From the NCBI GenBank assembly GCA_963971405.1, contig OZ020485.1:41971469-42035468 (forward strand): 64,000 nucleotides of DNA, written 5' to 3'. The notes beneath the pieces were generated by a model, which saw nothing but the letters and a program-made list of their open reading frames with translations, searched no databases and was not told the origin of the DNA. The translations under genes were made by a program, and so were the position numbers. This DNA comes from Psococerastis gibbosa (taxonomy: Eukaryota; Arthropoda; Insecta; Psocodea; Psocidae). Shown here piece by piece: positions 4,283 through 54,189 of this stretch. How positions within the stretch are numbered: position 1 is the first letter of the stretch; the number at the start of each line of letters is the position of its first letter.

Positions 4283-5034
4283 GTATACTGCCATAAAATA
4301 ACTGCATCACCCTGTTGTGCCTTACTCCTCATGTTTTTTCCCTTTGCAGATATTGTATATATTGTATACTTGGGGGTGCTTTTTTGGTACACTACGTACT
4401 TTGCATTGAAGTGTCTGAATTACAATAATGTACATTTTAAAAATATGAAGAACCAGTGAGTGAGGAGCTATTGGCACTCCCCACAAGACAAAAAGTAGAG
4501 AATGTCACCGGCACATGCTCCTTAATAGCTTAAATCTTGGCTCTGGAGTCAAATATTTTTTGCACTCCAGCTCGCAACCAATGAGGTAAAACGCGGGACA
4601 AGGTGGGCGTCGGGTGATGAACAGTCTGGTTCCATGCCAGATAGCTGTCTGTGACCACGTAATTATTAATAATTATCTGCACCACAGCATATCATAAATT
4701 AATTGCGTTTCTACTGACACGACTAGCCTGGCTGCACTTGCCTGTTGATATATTCAAAATGGCTTTAAATTAATTCATAGACTAGTTCGTGGCAGGAAAT
4801 TTATGAGGGTTTGCGGTTTCAAAGCTTTTCTACTCGTTTTCTTGGTGCTTCCGTCATTACTATACGGTTCTTTATGCTCTTTTCATCGCTGCATTTAAGA
4901 ATTTACAATGCACCTGTAGCAATGTAATGCATGCCTACTATTGTACAATATCATGTACATATATCATATGTACATGCAATTGTGTTAATGCAAAATTTGT
5001 AATATTGTTCTTTCTGAAGTAGTTCATTGACACC
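4283..5034. other. AT-rich spacer upstream of the Academ element
   Basis: No gene or repeat boundary is seen. The last three bases (5032-5034, ACC) form the left target duplication of the Academ transposon. Confidence 0.5.
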
Positions 5035-5560
5035 TAGTCCAGTCAAATTGTACATTAAAAATGGGTCGTGCATGCAAAAGGTCATGTAGTTCTAATTTTT
5101 TAGTATGTTGTTAGGATCACAACCATTAGTAAAAAACCAAGTTTGCCCCCCTTAAAAAGTTGTGCGACCAGCGTAATGGCCGAAAAACTTCGAAATTTTC
5201 GGACATTTTTTGGTTTTTGGTTAAAATCTCCCAGAGTATGCGTTGGACCGAAAAAACCCCTATATGCAGTATTAAACTGCATTTAATTATCTACCATTTG
5301 AAACCAAAACCATATCCGTAGGGCAATTACTTTAGAAAATACATCATTTCGGAAACAGGCAAAATTTTCGGACATGTGGAAAATTTTCGGTTTTGCATTG
5401 TTTTTCTTCAAATAACGTCAAAAATACTCATCACACAAGAAGTTAATCTGTACTAATGTAAAGGTACTTTAATAAGCTTTCTTTTGATCCCAGATGGACA
5501 CCTACAGCCCTATTCGTACTAATAAATTTCAGATAATCAGCGGAAACAGTGTAATGCAAA
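5035..5560 (+). repeat. Left TIR of the Academ element
   Basis: This arm of about 526 bp pairs with 10488-11004. The inner limit lies at GTGTAATGCAAA (5549-5560). The outer ~60 bp are the most diverged, with a few length differences. The arm holds three AAATTTTCGG blocks near 5193, 5362 and 5381, candidate transposase-binding sites. Confidence 0.9.
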
Positions 5561-5936
5561 CTGTTTCTTTCCCTTGCTCCTGCAGGTCTGCTCTAACTAT
5601 AGAAGCTCCTCCTCCCGCATTCCGATCCCGTGATTCACACTATCAGCAGCACTCAATGCCTTTACCTTTTGGGTTTTCATAAGTGTTAATGTAAAATGAA
5701 TTAAGACATAATACATAATTCATTGGAAATTCAGCCTTATTATGACTGAGTTAACAGAATGAACAATGAATTACTATAGCACTTACACTCTTGTTTACCT
5801 TACGACAGCAGTTCCACCTTAGCGACTAAGTCTAATGAAGAAACGTCAGCATTTCTATGCCAAGTATAATAATGCAATACTTTACTCAGTTTGTTCGTGT
5901 TGTGCAACGTGCAAGTAGTGAAAAACAATCAGTGGA
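5561..5936 (+). promoter_or_regulatory. 5' leader of the Academ transposase gene
   Basis: This non-coding interval lies between the inner end of the left TIR and the start codon. An initiator-like TCAGT lies at 5886-5890, about 47 bases before the ATG, which would suit an arthropod-type start site. No TATA box is convincing. The promoter assignment is inference from position only. Confidence 0.35.
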
Positions 5937-8900
5937 ATGTCTATTCCTGCGGGAGTTTGTTTTATTTGCCGGAGGTCTCTCGATGAAGGCCCTATTGCAA
6001 TCGTAAAAAAACGGGGTGTTCAATCATTCATTGAAGCGAGTGTGAAGCGTGGTCTCACGGATATTCAAACTTTACTTCAAGGGCTCCATGAAGTCACAGT
6101 TCATGAGGCGTGCAGAAAGAGGTATGCAACCGAAAAAAATGTTGATATTTCAGTTCGTCGACGAGAACGGGATTCTGCTCCACAAGCATGCAGATCTTCA
6201 AGAGCATCAAGTGCAGTCCATTTCAACTTGCAAAATATTTGTTTTTTGTGTGGTGAAGATATCACTGATGATTTTATCAAGCTTCAACAGAAATTGCCCT
6301 ATTCACGAAGGAATATTATCCATACTGTTGAGCAGCTGGGCGTCAGAAAAACAGTGCTGGATGCAGCCCAACGCCGTGGTGATGAATGGGGGAGAAGTAT
6401 AGAAATGCGCCTTCGTGCAAGTGAAGACGACTTGGTAGCTGCTGACGCAAGATATCACAGTCTATGTTATAAAAAGCTATTTTCCATGCCGTCAATAACT
6501 GGAAAGAAGAGGGGGCATCGCCCAGCCAATGATATAGAAGAAGCAATGGAGGGTATATACGAATATCTGTTGGAAAACAGTGATGAATGCCAGTTCTCGT
6601 TAGATGATCTCTTAAAACTATGTGAAGGTGGTTACGTTCCTGACTCACGCACTGCAAAATCTCGCCTTATCAAACGTTTTGGCGATGACATCGTTATATC
6701 TGAGGCTGGCGCTAACAAGGGAGCAGTAGTCTGTTTCAAACACACGGGTCACAAAATTTTGTACGATAATTGGTATACTGCAAAACAGATTGATAAGCAA
6801 CAAGAGCGATTGAGGGTGGTAAAGGCAGCGGCAGAGATAATATTAGAAGACATTCGCTCTCAAGTTTACGACACAAGTGACTATCCTCCATCCGATGAGT
6901 TTTTAAATAATCTTGATTCAGTTATCCCAGAGTCTGTGACTCTATTTTATGAAACAATTGTCCTAAAAAACAAGCGTGGTCTACAGGAATCATGGAAGAA
7001 GAAGTGTGTGTCATTTTCCCACGCTCTCATATCAGCTGTACGACCGCGATCTTTTGTGTCTCCTCTACTGATCGGTGTTGGGACCTACTTTTACAGAAAA
7101 TTTGGTTCCAAGCATCTTGTGAACATGTGCTCCGCACTAGGGTTCTCCTGCTCTTATAATGATGTCGTGCAGCTTGAAAGTTCTGCAATATTGCGGCCTG
7201 AATCGTTACCATCCATCGAGGCAGGAGCTTTTGTGCAATTTGTTTTCGACAATGCAGATGTAAACGTAAACACTCTGGACGGGGAAAATACATTCCATGA
7301 AATGGGGGGCATTATGTGCGTAACGCCTTACACTGCTGTATTGCGGGACAAAAACATCCCACGCTTAAAGAAATATGTTCCCGCTGACAAAGTTACCTCT
7401 CAAAGTGACATAGAAATAAAACATTGCAATATAAGGAAAAATTCAGGGTTATCAACAATCGTGGTAAATGACCTAGAGGGAATTTATAAAGTGGACGGGG
7501 AAATATTGCCTTCAGCCTCAGACCTGTTTTGGTTGTTTGGAAAGTGGAGAAAACCTCTAAGTATGTCAGGATGGAATGGGTTTATGGAGCAAGTGACTGA
7601 AAAACTTGACTTTTCACGCTCCAAAATCCTTTTCCTTCCATTCATTCGAGCCCCCCCTACGGACTACGATACGGTATTCACTTCACTCATTGAAGCAAGT
7701 AGGCGAAGTAAAGCATGTTCTCAGAAATTCACCTTTGTTACTTTCGATCAGCCGCTATTCATGAAAGCAAGAGACATTGTTCAAAGTGGTCAACATCCGG
7801 AGCTAAGTTGTGTGATTGTGAGACTTGGTGGTTTCCACCTCCTTATGTCCTTCATGGGTTGCATCGGTTCGATAATGGCTGGTAGTGGATTGAAGGAGTT
7901 ACTGACGACTATATACGCAGATCATAGTGTTGATAAAATGCTAAATGGCCATGCATATTCACGAGCAGTCCGAGCACACATTTTGACAAACCTTACATTG
8001 GCTGGCATTGTTTTGGATGAAGTGCATCTGACTGCTGAGGAGATCAACGAAATTGAAAACTTGTTGTGGATCAGTGAGAGGTCTCACATCATATCTGCAA
8101 AGGAAACTGAAATATTTCAAATCCTCAACGCAAAGTTCAAAAGTGCATTGGATAAAATTGAAAAAAACGGCCCAACCTCGCAGTTATGGGTCCAATACTT
8201 TAGGATGACTACTCTCCTTAAACTATTTATCCAGGCAGAACGGATGGGTGATTGGGACCTTCACTTGTATAGCGTCCATTTAATTATGCCTTTCTTTCAT
8301 TCAGCTGGACATTATTTGTACGCAAAGAGCACCCATCTGTACCTACAGGACATGATGGCATTAGAAAAAGTGATGGATAAATCTGAATATGATATGTTCA
8401 CAAATGGGTATTTTACTATCCGCCGATCAGACAAGTTTTGGTCTGGGCTATGGTCAGATTTAACAATTGAACAGAAGTTGATGAGGTCAATGAAGAGTTG
8501 CGGTGGATTAACCCAAGGGCGTGGAATCTCCAGCAGCGTGTTGGCAAGATGGACTGTAGGCATGGTATCCATGGTAAATATATGCGAGGAATTAGAGAGT
8601 TTCTGTCGCATTTCCTGTCCTACTGGAGAGCAGCATGTGGATATGAGACCTGCTCGCATCATCCGAGATAATAACGATGCTAAGAAACTTAGTAGTTGGT
8701 TCGCTCTTCACCCTCCATTCCCCACTACTGACAGGTTGCTGTCTCTCAGTAGTGGTTTAGTGGGAGGTCCAAACATTAATTGTCACATGGCCCAACAGCT
8801 TGGGACTGCTGGAGTTAAGCTCATAATTGGGAAAACGTTTGACTGCGTAGCGTTCAAAAGGAAAAACAAAGTAGCCACGCTAGCATCGACAACCTGTTCT

Positions 8901-10385
8901 GTTAAAGTTAACGACAAGAGACTAGTCATTGATCCACTTTCAATTTTTCAGCGTTTGTGTATAACAAAGCAGTCAGAAAAGGATTTAGAAGAGCATTTCA
9001 AGTATGAATTAGCCCCTTTCCCAACGTCCTTGTTTAATGAACAGGGGATGCGAAAAGGGACAAAATCCACATTCTATTCTGCCTTCACTCCTCTCTCGAG
9101 TCGCACGAAAATAGATGCCAATACCTACGTCGTTTTAGATGGTGGACATTTGTTACACAAAGTGGTGTGGCGACGTAAAACGTCAGTAGCAGACGTTGTC
9201 TCGGCCTACACTACCTACGTCAAAAATAACTTTGGAAAGAACGTCTCAATCGTTTTTGATGGCTACCCTGAAGACGCCACTAAAAGAAACACGAAAACAG
9301 CTGAGCGACTCCGTCGCTATTCTGTTCAGACAAGTTATGAATTATCGTTTGAGGAATCCACTGTAATTCAAATCCCTCAAGATAAAGTGTTGGGTAATGA
9401 GAAGAATAAGCGTCGTCTGATAGCACTTCTATGTAGCGTCTTTGAGCAGCAAGGAATAGAGGTGGCGGTTGCACAGGAAGACGCCGACCGAGAGATCATT
9501 GTCACGGCATTATCAAAAAGCCCTTCAAGCGAAAGAGTGGTCATTGTAGGAGAAGACGTGGACCTACTTGTCCTGCTGAATGGTTTATGTACTGGAGAGA
9601 CAAACGTATACCTTCAAAAAAGTGACAATAGTGAAGAAGGCTTCTGTCACTATTCCACGACTTCCTACAACTTTCGAAGTTCCCGTCTTTCTCCACAGAC
9701 GGTATTATTTACCCACGCTTTCACAGGGTGTGACACTACCTCAGCACCGTTTGCCATGGGAAAAAACAAATTTGCTAATATATTGGACCAAAAACTAGCT
9801 GAAATGACTGATGTCTTTCTACAATCCCAGTCCACCAAAGACGATGTGAAATTAGCCGGCATCAAGTGCTTCGTGGCTCTGTACGGGGGTGATATAGAAG
9901 CTGACATATTGAATCATCTTCGGTATAAGATATTCATCACCTCCGGTAACATTAACCTTGCGCGTCTACCTCCAACTGAGGATACTGCTGGGCTTCACGC
10001 TCTCAGGTGTTATTATCAAGTGCAGAAGTGGTTGGGGACAGACCTAAATCCAAAGGATTGGGGGTGGAAGTTAGACCACCATGGGCTTGCCCCAATTACC
10101 ACAACTATGGATCCCGCTCCTCTCTTGCTCCTCCGGAAAATATCCTGCAAGTGTAAGAAGGGGTGCAGTGGTAGATGCAGCTGCCGTAAAACTGGACTTA
10201 AATGCTCCGTTCTGTGTCAAAACTGCGGTGGCAAATCATGCACCAATGCTACTACAATTGACCTTAACGATTCAGACGACGAGGAAGAAGATATGACATC
10301 CTCAATAGATGTAGGCAGCACTGATGGGACTCCTATTGTTGGGAACTCTCATGAACCGGGCCCGTCAAAAATGAAGAAAATGTGA
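5937..10385 (+). CDS. Academ transposase-nuclease, 1,482 aa (Zn modules, DDE-like core, XPG nuclease, CXC finger)
   Basis: This is the probable mobilising protein of the surrounding transposon, expected to act in the nucleus on its TIRs. Two N-terminal zinc modules have the same spacing style: C8-x2-C11 with H56-x2-C59, and C102-x2-C105 with H174-x2-C177. The central part contains FDNADVN (D438, D441), then DGENTFH (D448-H454), FDQP (D604) and GGFH (H634). I propose these as the RNase-H-fold transposase core. The third acidic residue is not assigned; E810 is one candidate. The C-terminal third has the XPG/FEN1 nuclease series: LDGG (D1068), FDGYP (D1108), QEDADRE (E1181, D1182, D1184), GEDVD (E1206, D1207, D1209) and GCDTT (D1266). 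After it comes a tesmin/TSO1-like CXC cluster (C1404 to C1435) and an acidic tail. The ATG at 5937 directly precedes the first zinc module. No intron, frameshift or stop is present. Family membership is well supported; which domain does which cleavage is not settled by sequence. Confidence 0.9.
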   Translation: MSIPAGVCFICRRSLDEGPIAIVKKRGVQSFIEASVKRGLTDIQTLLQGLHEVTVHEACRKRYATEKNVDISVRRRERDSAPQACRSSRASSAVHFNLQNICFLCGEDITDDFIKLQQKLPYSRRNIIHTVEQLGVRKTVLDAAQRRGDEWGRSIEMRLRASEDDLVAADARYHSLCYKKLFSMPSITGKKRGHRPANDIEEAMEGIYEYLLENSDECQFSLDDLLKLCEGGYVPDSRTAKSRLIKRFGDDIVISEAGANKGAVVCFKHTGHKILYDNWYTAKQIDKQQERLRVVKAAAEIILEDIRSQVYDTSDYPPSDEFLNNLDSVIPESVTLFYETIVLKNKRGLQESWKKKCVSFSHALISAVRPRSFVSPLLIGVGTYFYRKFGSKHLVNMCSALGFSCSYNDVVQLESSAILRPESLPSIEAGAFVQFVFDNADVNVNTLDGENTFHEMGGIMCVTPYTAVLRDKNIPRLKKYVPADKVTSQSDIEIKHCNIRKNSGLSTIVVNDLEGIYKVDGEILPSASDLFWLFGKWRKPLSMSGWNGFMEQVTEKLDFSRSKILFLPFIRAPPTDYDTVFTSLIEASRRSKACSQKFTFVTFDQPLFMKARDIVQSGQHPELSCVIVRLGGFHLLMSFMGCIGSIMAGSGLKELLTTIYADHSVDKMLNGHAYSRAVRAHILTNLTLAGIVLDEVHLTAEEINEIENLLWISERSHIISAKETEIFQILNAKFKSALDKIEKNGPTSQLWVQYFRMTTLLKLFIQAERMGDWDLHLYSVHLIMPFFHSAGHYLYAKSTHLYLQDMMALEKVMDKSEYDMFTNGYFTIRRSDKFWSGLWSDLTIEQKLMRSMKSCGGLTQGRGISSSVLARWTVGMVSMVNICEELESFCRISCPTGEQHVDMRPARIIRDNNDAKKLSSWFALHPPFPTTDRLLSLSSGLVGGPNINCHMAQQLGTAGVKLIIGKTFDCVAFKRKNKVATLASTTCSVKVNDKRLVIDPLSIFQRLCITKQSEKDLEEHFKYELAPFPTSLFNEQGMRKGTKSTFYSAFTPLSSRTKIDANTYVVLDGGHLLHKVVWRRKTSVADVVSAYTTYVKNNFGKNVSIVFDGYPEDATKRNTKTAERLRRYSVQTSYELSFEESTVIQIPQDKVLGNEKNKRRLIALLCSVFEQQGIEVAVAQEDADREIIVTALSKSPSSERVVIVGEDVDLLVLLNGLCTGETNVYLQKSDNSEEGFCHYSTTSYNFRSSRLSPQTVLFTHAFTGCDTTSAPFAMGKNKFANILDQKLAEMTDVFLQSQSTKDDVKLAGIKCFVALYGGDIEADILNHLRYKIFITSGNINLARLPPTEDTAGLHALRCYYQVQKWLGTDLNPKDWGWKLDHHGLAPITTTMDPAPLLLLRKISCKCKKGCSGRCSCRKTGLKCSVLCQNCGGKSCTNATTIDLNDSDDEEEDMTSSIDVGSTDGTPIVGNSHEPGPSKMKKM

Positions 10386-10487
10386 ATGTAAAAAAAAATT
10401 TGTTCAAGTACATTTAAAATATATAGGCCTACATAAGTAAAGTAATATTGTTTGTCTACTGCTATTTCTGGACGTGTAGTATCAAAA
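10386..10487 (+). other. 3' trailer of the Academ gene
   Basis: About 100 AT-rich bases lie between the stop codon and the inner end of the right TIR. I see no perfect AATAAA here. The transcript end may lie inside the right TIR. Confidence 0.4.
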
Positions 10488-11004
10488 TTCGCATTACACA
10501 GTTTCCGCTGATTATCTGAAATTTATTAGTACGAATAGGGCTATAGGTGTCTATCTCGTCTCAAATGAAAGCTTATTAAAGTATCTTTAAATTTGTATGA
10601 AGTAACTTTCTTGTGGAATGAGTATTTTTGACGTTATTTGAAGAAAAACAATGCAAAACCGAAAATTTTCCACATGTCCGAAAATTTTGCCTGTTTCCGA
10701 AATGCTGTATTTTCTAAAGTAATTGCCCTACGGATTTGGTTTTGGTTTCAAATGGTAGATAATTAAATGCAGTTTAATACTACATATAGGGGTTCTTTCG
10801 GTCCAACGCATATTTAGGGAGATTTTAACCAAAAACCAAAAAATGTCCGAAAATTTCGAAGTTTTTCGGCCATTACGCTGGTCGCACAACTTTTTAAGGG
10901 GGGCAAACTTGGTTTTTTACTAATGGTTGTGATCCTAACAACATACTAAAAAATTAGAACTACATGACCTTTTGCAAGCACTGATGTCTTATTTGACTGG
11001 ACTA
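10488..11004 (-). repeat. Right TIR of the Academ element
   Basis: This is the inverted counterpart of 5035-5560. It begins at GCATTACACAGTTTCCGCTG and ends in ATTTGACTGGACTA, followed at once by the ACC duplication. It carries the complementary CCGAAAATTT blocks. Confidence 0.9.
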
Positions 11005-11371
11005 ACCCCAATAAATCTCATCTTATTTTATCTATCAATGATACGGTACTTCATGTGAAATTTGATTTTGTACGAAACCGAGTACATTTTAGTGGGGGTC
11101 TCCCATTTGCTCCTATTTGTGACTGTCATTACAATTTTTTTTTTGCATTCTTAAAATTTCTAGGACTAAAATCATTAATAAGAAACATTAACGTGACCAA
11201 CGATTTATTAGTCATTCAATAATACTGTATACGTATATCAGTAGGACTTAAAATTAAAAATTAAAAGGAGTACAAATTCTTAGTACAGTTAATCATTTAA
11301 TTTACAATCGGTTTCTTTTATGCAACTCGTTGTCATGATACAATACACGTACATGGTAAACAATTACTAAA

Positions 11372-51605: not shown

Positions 51606-54189
51606 TTGAAATCCTTCCTTCGCCCTCACTATCCTAACAGTGACCTATGTGTCAGGAAATTGGACGCCAACCGCTTTTGTTCAGAGCAAAACTTAGAAAT
51701 GTCAGCCATTGAATTAACCGATTTGTCAACCCTGGTTGTTTCTCTGTATAGGTCACCTAATGGATCTTTTCCAATTTTTTTAAGCAACTTAGACTCATTC
51801 CTCTCATCACAAAGTGGTAAGCACAAGACTATAATCCTAGGTGGGGATTTTAACGTACACTTTAACACTTGCAGTAGACACGAGATTGATCTCACAAATT
51901 TATGCCGAAGTTATAATCTTTTTTTGACGAATCGTGAGCCGACAAGACTGGATAATTGCATAGACAACATTTTTACAAATCATACAGAGTTCACTGTTTC
52001 TGTATCTGATCCTACTGTTGCAGACCATAAAGCTGTGGAAATGTCATTAAACTTCTTTAAACCAGAGTTACGCGTTCCTTCTTGGTGTGCCAATTACATA
52101 TCTACAACCAGGAAAGTAGACGAAAATAATTTTCATATTCTTATCTCGCGACTCAATGAAATAAACTGGGATATTGTAATAGAAAATGCTCATCCAACTG
52201 CTGTTAGTAAGTTCACTTCTTTTTTCAATGTATTAACCGACATTTTTAATAAAACCTTCCCCCAAAAACACATACACACGCCTCAGTTAGTCACAAAGAA
52301 AAATCATAAGCCGCCAAAAAATCCATGGTATACCCAAGACCTCAGAAATATTAAGGAATATCTGCTAACGTTGAACTATAGGTTTAAAGAGACCCCAGAT
52401 ACTGATTCCAAATCAGCGTTATATAGAAAATACCTGCGAGTTAAAAGTATTTATAAATACAAATTAACGCAGGCTAAGAAAAATTATAACGTAGAAACAA
52501 TAAACAAAGCCGCAAACCCATGTAAAGCCATGTGGGCCCTTGTTAACGCCCAGGCCAAAAAGCGACAGACTCCATTATGTCCTATCAGCCCTGATGAACT
52601 AAATAACTATTTCTCTGAGGCGGCAGATAAAATAATAAACAGCCTCCCACCCAGTAATACGGACCCTGTACTTGGAGTTACCAGTACAGATGTATCTTTT
52701 TCCACTTGGGCACCTGTAAGTTGTCAGGATGTAATCAAAATAGTAAATGGCCTAAAGACGTCTCAGAGTGCAGACGCATATGGGTTTTCGTCGCTAATAC
52801 TTAAAAGTATCATTGATACTATTGCCACGCCTCTTACTACTCTATTAAATATCAGTCTGAAAGAGGGAATCTTCCCTGATGAGCTTAAGATTTCCAGAAC
52901 CGTGCCCATACATAAGAAAGGAGATGTATACTCTCCAGGAAACTATAGACCGATATCAATTGTGCCAGTTATCGGTAAAGTACTAGAAAAAATTATGTGT
53001 ATCCAATTAGTGAACTACTTTGAAAAAAATGAATTGTTCAATGAAAGTCAACATGGTTTCAGGAGAGGTAAATCCACTTTCAGTGCTGCTTTAGAAATGG
53101 TTCAGGAGGCTCTAGACTGCTTCGAGGCAGGCGACTCCTTGGGCCTATCTTTCTGCGACCTAAGCAAAGCATTTGACTGTGTATATCATCCAATATTATT
53201 AGGTAAACTACAACGCTATGGTGTACGCAACGTAGTACTAACAATACTGACGTCTTATCTAGAAAACAGAACTCAGTTAGTAACCGTTGCGGGAGCACCT
53301 TCCACTCTTAAGTCTGTTAGACATGGGGTTCCTCAGGGCTCTGTCCTGGGTCCTCTACTATTCCTCGTAATGATAAATGATCTTAAAAACAGCACTATAC
53401 TCTTTGCGGATGACACCACACTGAAGAAAAGAGCCTCGTCCCCTGAAGGTGCTGTTGCTGAAGGACGACCCTTCTAGAAAAAACAGCTGATTGGTTCATT
53501 AATAATAAGTTCCAACTAAATGCAGACAAAACCCAGCATCTTGTTTTGACACTAAGGCATATCCAGACAACAACAGAGCGGTTAAGTTCCTGGGCTTTCA
53601 TTTAGATCCAACTTTAAGTTGGAATATCCATATTGATCAAATATGTAAAAAGTTATGTCGTATTACATACCTCTTCAGAAAGTTGAGGAATCAAGTTACT
53701 TCAACTCATCTTCTGAATACATATTATGGATTATTCCACTCCCATATAAATTATGGTATTTTACTCTGGGGGCACGCTCCTGCTGCAAAGGATATACTCC
53801 TACTACAGAAGCGTGTGTTGCGAATAATAACTAACAGCAGATCTAGAGAGCCTTGTAGGCCTATTTTTTCCACCCTGGGTATTCTTACAATATATGCACA
53901 ATATGTACTCAATAGCCTTATATATATAAAGGAAAATCTAGTTAACTTCAGCAACAGATGTGATGTTCATAATTACCCCACTAGAACAGCTCATCACCTA
54001 CAAATCCCTAAGTGCAGATTAACAAAAACAAAGAGTAGTTTCCCAAATTTGGCCATTAAGTTATACAACTCTCTACCGAGGTCAATCCAGACAGAAAATC
54101 TGCCCCAATTTGGAAAAACTGTTGAGTACATATTAAAAACACATCCCATATATTCCATAAATGAATTTTATGAACTAGTTTGGAGTTAG
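51606..54189 (+). pseudogene. APE-RT non-LTR retrotransposon (CR1/Jockey group), 5'-truncated and frameshifted
   Basis: The first open frame (51606-53477) starts inside the endonuclease domain. It keeps GGDFNVHF (D81, N83) and the ADH motif (D140-H141) but lacks the N-terminal catalytic Glu region. The reverse transcriptase follows: KKGDVYSPGNYRPIS, QHGFRRGKST, DLSKAFD (D518, D525), GVPQGSVLGP, and the catalytic FADD (D602-D603). A frameshift near 53455-53470 moves the frame to LLEKTADWFINNKFQLNADK. A second near 53575-53585 moves it to VKFLGFHLDPTLSW, which continues to the stop at 54187-54189 through the thumb and C-terminal tail. The element has no RNase H. The RT core is otherwise uncorrupted, so inactivation is fairly recent. 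Confidence 0.9.

Follow-up and report, generated by a model that had tools for sequence, protein, structure and literature searches.

A complete, apparently autonomous transposon, very probably of the AcademX lineage, and its near-identical copies in the genome of Psococerastis gibbosa

The element at positions 5035–11004 of the window (the whole 64,000 nt stretch analysed) is very probably an AcademX DNA transposon, complete and apparently autonomous, and one of 19 copies that have spread very recently through the genome. The copies are two-ended insertions bounded by staggered duplications of 3 or 4 bp, and one protein, part of which has a predicted nuclease fold, is encoded per element. The AcademX reading is well supported but not complete, and the transposase part of the protein is a candidate, proposed from its sequence. 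The genome examined is the one that contains the window (C2:41971469-42035468) and comprises 409,210,807 bases in 68 contigs; all counts from searches of it are lower bounds. The features of the element, whose family is referred to as family 1 or the window family, are as follows.

5032–5034, no strand: left target-site duplication (ACC), from flank comparison
5035–5560, plus strand: left terminal inverted repeat (TIR), beginning with TAGTCCAGTCAAAT, from the TIR alignment and 19 left ends in the genome (99–100 % identity)
5937–10385, plus strand: single open gene for a putative transposase-plus-nuclease protein of 1482 aa, an ORF from ATG that is full length in 17 of 19 copies
5958–6467, plus strand: two N-terminal CxxC...HxxC modules (C8, C11, H56, C59; C102, C105, H174, C177), likely zinc-binding, with these residues the same in families 1 and 2
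7224–8666, plus strand: candidate transposase core, about residues 430–910 (FDNAD at 437, TFDQP at 602, GGFH at 631), strongly conserved with family 2
9120–9836, plus strand: predicted XPG/FEN1-type nuclease domain, about residues 1062–1300 (D1068, D1108, D1182, D1184, D1207, D1209, D1266), from Foldseek matches to T5 FEN, EXO1, Rad2, FEN1 and XPG and the placement of the acidic residues in the model
10146–10241, plus strand: cysteine-rich CXC-like segment, residues 1404–1435, nine cysteines invariant
10488–11004, minus strand: right TIR, from the TIR alignment and genome matches
11005–11007, no strand: right target-site duplication (ACC), from flank comparison

Ends of the element and its copies in the genome

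The element is 5970 bases long, and the boundaries first proposed for it proved exact to the base. When its TIRs (5035–5560 and 10488–11004) were aligned, 487 of 516 columns were identical (94.4 %), with one 10-base and one 1-base gap. Both ends carry TAGTCCAGTCAAAT and abut ACC, the junctions reading ...GACACC/TAGTCC... on the left and ...GGACTA/ACCCCA... on the right, with the 3-base ACC duplicated. The matched TIRs of approximately 520 bp and perfect flanking ACC of the original prediction were thus reproduced in coordinates, alignment and duplication. The 14-base end occurs 41 times in the genome, 38 times in the 19 elements and three times elsewhere, and the reversed control once.

Copies were sought using the first 521 bases of the element as query. 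All 38 candidates were scored, and the 38 matches pair up into 19 two-ended elements, including the window copy, that lie on eight contigs (C1, C2, C3, C13, C14, C15, C19 and C20). The left TIRs of the 18 other copies are 99–100 % identical. When all 19 were compared with their flanks, 17 were 5970 bases long and two differed in length (L019, 5968 bases; L011, 8163 bases). Duplication lengths of 2 to 11 were examined at every site, and an exact 3-base duplication was found at 18 of the 19; at the remaining site (L025) the duplication is of 4 bases (ATTT), without any 3-base match. TAA was duplicated at two of the 19 sites, and the other duplications are ACC, CTT, TTG, TAT, GTT, TAG, TCC, AGT, TGT, AAC, CAA, ATG and ATTT. 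The further copies with the same ends on which the original prediction depended therefore exist, all with duplications of 3 or 4 bp, and because each of these 18 lies elsewhere and has its own duplication, a chance origin of the ends of the window element is excluded. As both 3 and 4 bp occur in one nearly identical family, the stagger is not set by the protein sequence alone.

At 12 of the 19 sites a C immediately precedes the duplication, in the orientation of the element, and there is no mirror of this on the right side. The excess is weak (p 3.8e-5, about 0.004 after 92 tests) and was noticed post hoc. Comparison of the 800-base flanks of the copies revealed no insertion point inside a shared repeat. 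Elsewhere in the window, a non-LTR retrotransposon with Pfam matches to endonuclease and reverse transcriptase lies at 51606–54189, its frame split in two. TTAGG telomeres are typical of arthropods, and five units of TTAGG occur 13,701 times in forward and 7,614 times in reverse orientation in this genome (controls, 0 and 1); among the first 100 matches listed, almost all are within the final 16 kb of C1.

Candidate transposase and predicted nuclease

The one unbroken gene of 1,482 codons that had been noted from the sequence is present, an ORF from ATG at 5937–10385. Of the zinc modules also noted, the two CxxC...HxxC modules are there and all eight Cys and His residues are invariant in families 1 and 2 (two sequences), but that they bind zinc is likely rather than observed. 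The middle of the protein is presumably a DDE transposase, a candidate singled out by its strong conservation with family 2, and the DDE-like motifs noted from the sequence are likewise candidates. A model of residues 1–1039, built from a two-sequence alignment, had a pLDDT of 34.7 and a pTM of 0.22. Searches of Pfam with the whole protein and with pieces that included the core found no family at E<=10, and neither sequence nor profile searches of the PDB returned a credible match or any transposase. The profile search put forward with the original prediction as a check for Academ transposase and XPG domains, when run against Pfam, failed to return either at E<=10. Relatives sought in viral contigs and prokaryote genomes were pattern matches, none of which was confirmed.

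The C-terminal third has a predicted XPG/FEN1-type nuclease fold. The C-terminal 453 residues were modelled from a seven-sequence alignment in which several sequences are partial, giving a moderate model (pLDDT 60.8, pTM 0.62) with core blocks at 80–89. A Foldseek search with this model matched 46 PDB chains at E<=1e-3, and the 50 PDB matches listed were all 5' nucleases of the FEN1/EXO1/XPG/Xrn type, with T5 FEN, a plastid exonuclease, EXO1 and Rad2 at the top and FEN1, ExoIX, XPG and Xrn1/2 lower. The TM-scores are low (0.23–0.40 by query and 0.17–0.52 by target) and the rmsd is high, and the match is therefore one of fold and does not indicate a close relationship. Sequence profiles alone did not find the nuclease in the PDB. 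Nonetheless, of the two folds that the original prediction had tied itself to, an RNase-H-like core or a PIN/XPG nuclease, the second is found, at the level of this moderate model.

In the model, the first two strands end in D1068 and D1108, helices begin at D1182/D1184 and D1207/D1209 after the next two strands, and D1266 comes next, within GCDTT. This is the order known from FEN1. FEN1 has ExE at the position where this protein has DxD (D1182, D1184), and the adjacent E1181 is not kept in family 3. The original claim that every acidic motif of the XPG/FEN1 fold is present thus holds for order and place but not for the ExE motif. In the tail, which resembles a CXC segment, nine cysteines are invariant in three families (three sequences); Pfam had no match to this segment.

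Variation among copies and related families

Pairwise differences among the 19 copies range from 0 to 9 bases, with a mean of 2.49. There are 22 substitutions in total, five in a single tract in L027 and 17 others, and of the latter 16 are private to a single copy and one (position 7073) is common to three. Seventeen changes in 19 x 5970 bases amount to 1.5e-4 per site, or an age of about 15,000 to 150,000 years at assumed rates of 1e-8 to 1e-9 per site per year. Eight of the 17 are in the gene and nine in the non-coding part, which is shorter (Fisher p 0.02). Seven of the eight coding substitutions are non-synonymous, so that comparison of the copies gives no sign of selection on the protein. 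The gene is full length in 17 of the 19 copies, and ten of the 19 proteins, including that of the window copy, are identical. In one broken copy (L019) a 2-base deletion stops the frame at 910 codons, and the other (L011) is interrupted by an insert of 2193 bases. This insert (L011:4232-6424) has the ends CAGGGCTGGAAC and TGTATA repeated on both sides, and a frame on its reverse strand has a Pfam hAT dimerisation match barely over the cut-off (21.5 vs 21.4 bits).

The five variants in the L027 tract, at 5233–5267, match the letters of the opposite (right) TIR at all five differing sites, and the flanking sites at which the TIRs differ (5072 and 5313) are unaltered. A variant in L020 at 10599 is likewise the letter of the opposite TIR. 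The L027 tract is what would be expected from gene conversion, or from template switching, between the two TIRs.

A search for decayed copies, using a 105-residue piece of the candidate transposase core as query with all 26 candidates scored, found no decayed copy of the window family: the 26 core matches comprised the 19 elements of the window family and seven of family 2. The full protein, with 32 of 214 candidates scored, found the same families together with nuclease-only matches, and the nuclease part found at least 114 matches that are more distant and in part broken (with 112 of 267 candidates scored).

The protein of family 2 (L028) is 47 % identical to that of the window family. The element is 5804 bases long with ends TAGTCCAGTCA, also written TAGTCCAGTCATTA, and TAG is duplicated (3 bp) in the single copy examined with its flanks. 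Seven two-ended copies and one single end were found (TIR matches to L028 of 96–100 %), and four of eight protein matches extend to residue 1458 without a stop, in the search with 32 of 214 candidates scored. Family 3 (L029 reverse strand 4902–6940; L033–L040) consists of non-autonomous 2-kb elements with ends TAGTCCGGTCAATT and TIRs of about 343 bases (93 % complementary). Of the protein, these elements retain just the C-terminal half of the nuclease together with the Cys-rich tail, encoded in a frame of 363 codons. Among nine copies compared, five have both ends and four of these have a 3-base duplication; L039 has none, with only 3 flanking bases on its left. Adjoining one family 3 copy is a 103-codon open frame (L033:1-312) that on inspection resembles a piece of a host gene, presumably of the gamma-tubulin complex type. 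That family 3 is a satellite selected for its nuclease was considered and rejected on 28 non-synonymous against eight synonymous changes (ratio 0.92, nine copies), which show no selection on the protein. Stops are present in three of the nine copies and frame-breaking indels in three others. The coding part is, contrary to this rejection, closer to the majority than the non-coding part in seven of the nine, and the frame looks young rather than protected. All three lineages have the ends TAGTCC(A/G)GTCA and 3-bp duplications in common.

Near-identity of this order could also arise if the copies were assembly or segmental duplications rather than transpositions, but the immediate flanks differ from copy to copy, each with its own 3- or 4-bp duplication, and the 800-base flanks have only short dispersed repeats in common, making this extremely improbable. 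Very recent mobility of the family is well supported, and the recent activity that had been surmised from the window alone has gained the backing of 18 near-identical extra copies. The absence of decayed members is consistent with recent arrival, though a possible alternative is that a single lineage recently took off again. As every copy has both ends and is close to identical to the others, and the searches turned up no decayed member of the family, we tentatively suggest that this is a currently active AcademX transposon that recently reached this arthropod genome by horizontal transfer, a reading whose chances we put at somewhat below even. It is also conceivable, if on balance doubtful, that the 19 copies stem from one short pulse and that the family is now silenced or inactive. 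The star-like variation, with 16 of the 17 substitutions outside the L027 tract confined to one copy, and coding changes that are non-synonymous in seven of eight cases, with no sign of selection between copies, would suit such a pulse, while the 17 full genes and near-zero divergence indicate that decay has scarcely begun. A finished pulse would be compatible with the AcademX assignment and would deny only present activity; the family may still be moving.

A mechanism can be proposed for such an element. DNA would be bound by the CxxC/HxxC modules at the N-terminus and by the Cys-rich segment at the C-terminus, the presumed DDE transposase in the middle would excise the element and join its 3' ends to the target strands with a stagger of 3, or sometimes 4, bases, and the nuclease would trim 5' flaps or overhangs, either at the ends left by cutting or while gaps are repaired. 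Repair of the donor gap from the sister chromatid would then increase copy number. The L027 patch is as expected if the element copies itself via gap repair with template switching, possibly aided by its own flap nuclease. Why a DNA transposon should have a flap-type nuclease of its own is a question of interest. Seventeen nearly identical copies with a full gene in one genome offer natural material with which to assay excision and integration, and the production of 3- and 4-bp duplications by one protein could be explained or refuted by mutating the catalytic residues of each domain.

Classification and comparison with known Academ elements

The AcademX nuclease is of the XPG type. Here, a nuclease of this type is encoded, as judged from the predicted fold, the duplications are of 3 bp (18 of 19) or 4 bp (one of 19), and TIRs are present (94.4 % over 516 columns). 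PIF/Harbinger elements make 3-bp TWA duplications, and that superfamily was rejected, with TAA in two of the 19 copies and TTA/TAA-like duplications otherwise absent. A fused XPG nuclease is not known to occur in any other TIR superfamily. It nevertheless remains to weigh a different or undescribed superfamily that came independently to an XPG-like nuclease and 3–4 bp duplications. The Pfam and PDB sequence searches, which matched no known transposase, and the poor core model (pLDDT 34.7, pTM 0.22) leave room for it, as does a comparison with Academ made by published description. However, a 3 or 4 bp duplication together with an encoded nuclease is the combination published for AcademX in the consulted text of PMC10045372, and we regard an independent origin as unlikely. 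According to the same text, in which the AcademX lineage of the Academ superfamily is credited to Kojima 2020, AcademX has 3 or 4 bp duplications and a nuclease, AcademH, of the same superfamily, has 9 or 10 bp duplications and a helicase, and the lengths are linked to these enzymes. AcademH was rejected, as duplications of 9–10 bp were seen in none of the 19 copies, all of which have 3 or 4 bp, and there was no helicase match in Pfam at E<=10.

Academ elements had been called sparsely studied. This is tempered by reports from bivalves, Bombyx, Bemisia and Daphnia, but a search of open-licence PubMed Central, which most subscription papers lie outside, found no report in which an Academ transposase had been assayed biochemically or in cells. 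In the consulted parts of these reports, Academ is plentiful in bivalves, with 100 curated autonomous full-length elements (PMC10294476), Bemisia has 42 full-length copies (PMC9143410) and one new Academ-1 insertion arose in Daphnia mutation-accumulation lines (PMC8594854). Hence, elements of this kind were already known. The unusual point is that 17 members of this family of 19 have full genes and that decay is absent.

The window family is like the AcademX lineage, as described in the text consulted, in its 3 or 4 bp duplications, TIRs and encoded nuclease. Set beside AcademX by this description rather than by alignment to named Academ sequences, it is a new family within a known superfamily, with 19 nearly identical copies, 17 of them with the full gene. 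A parallel among arthropods is the Academ of Lepidoptera and parasitoid wasps, which was recently active and for which horizontal transfer has been proposed (Zhang et al. 2016, as cited in the part of PMC5704228 consulted); in Bombyx one copy is seemingly complete (PMC5704228), whereas 17 of 19 copies have a full gene here.
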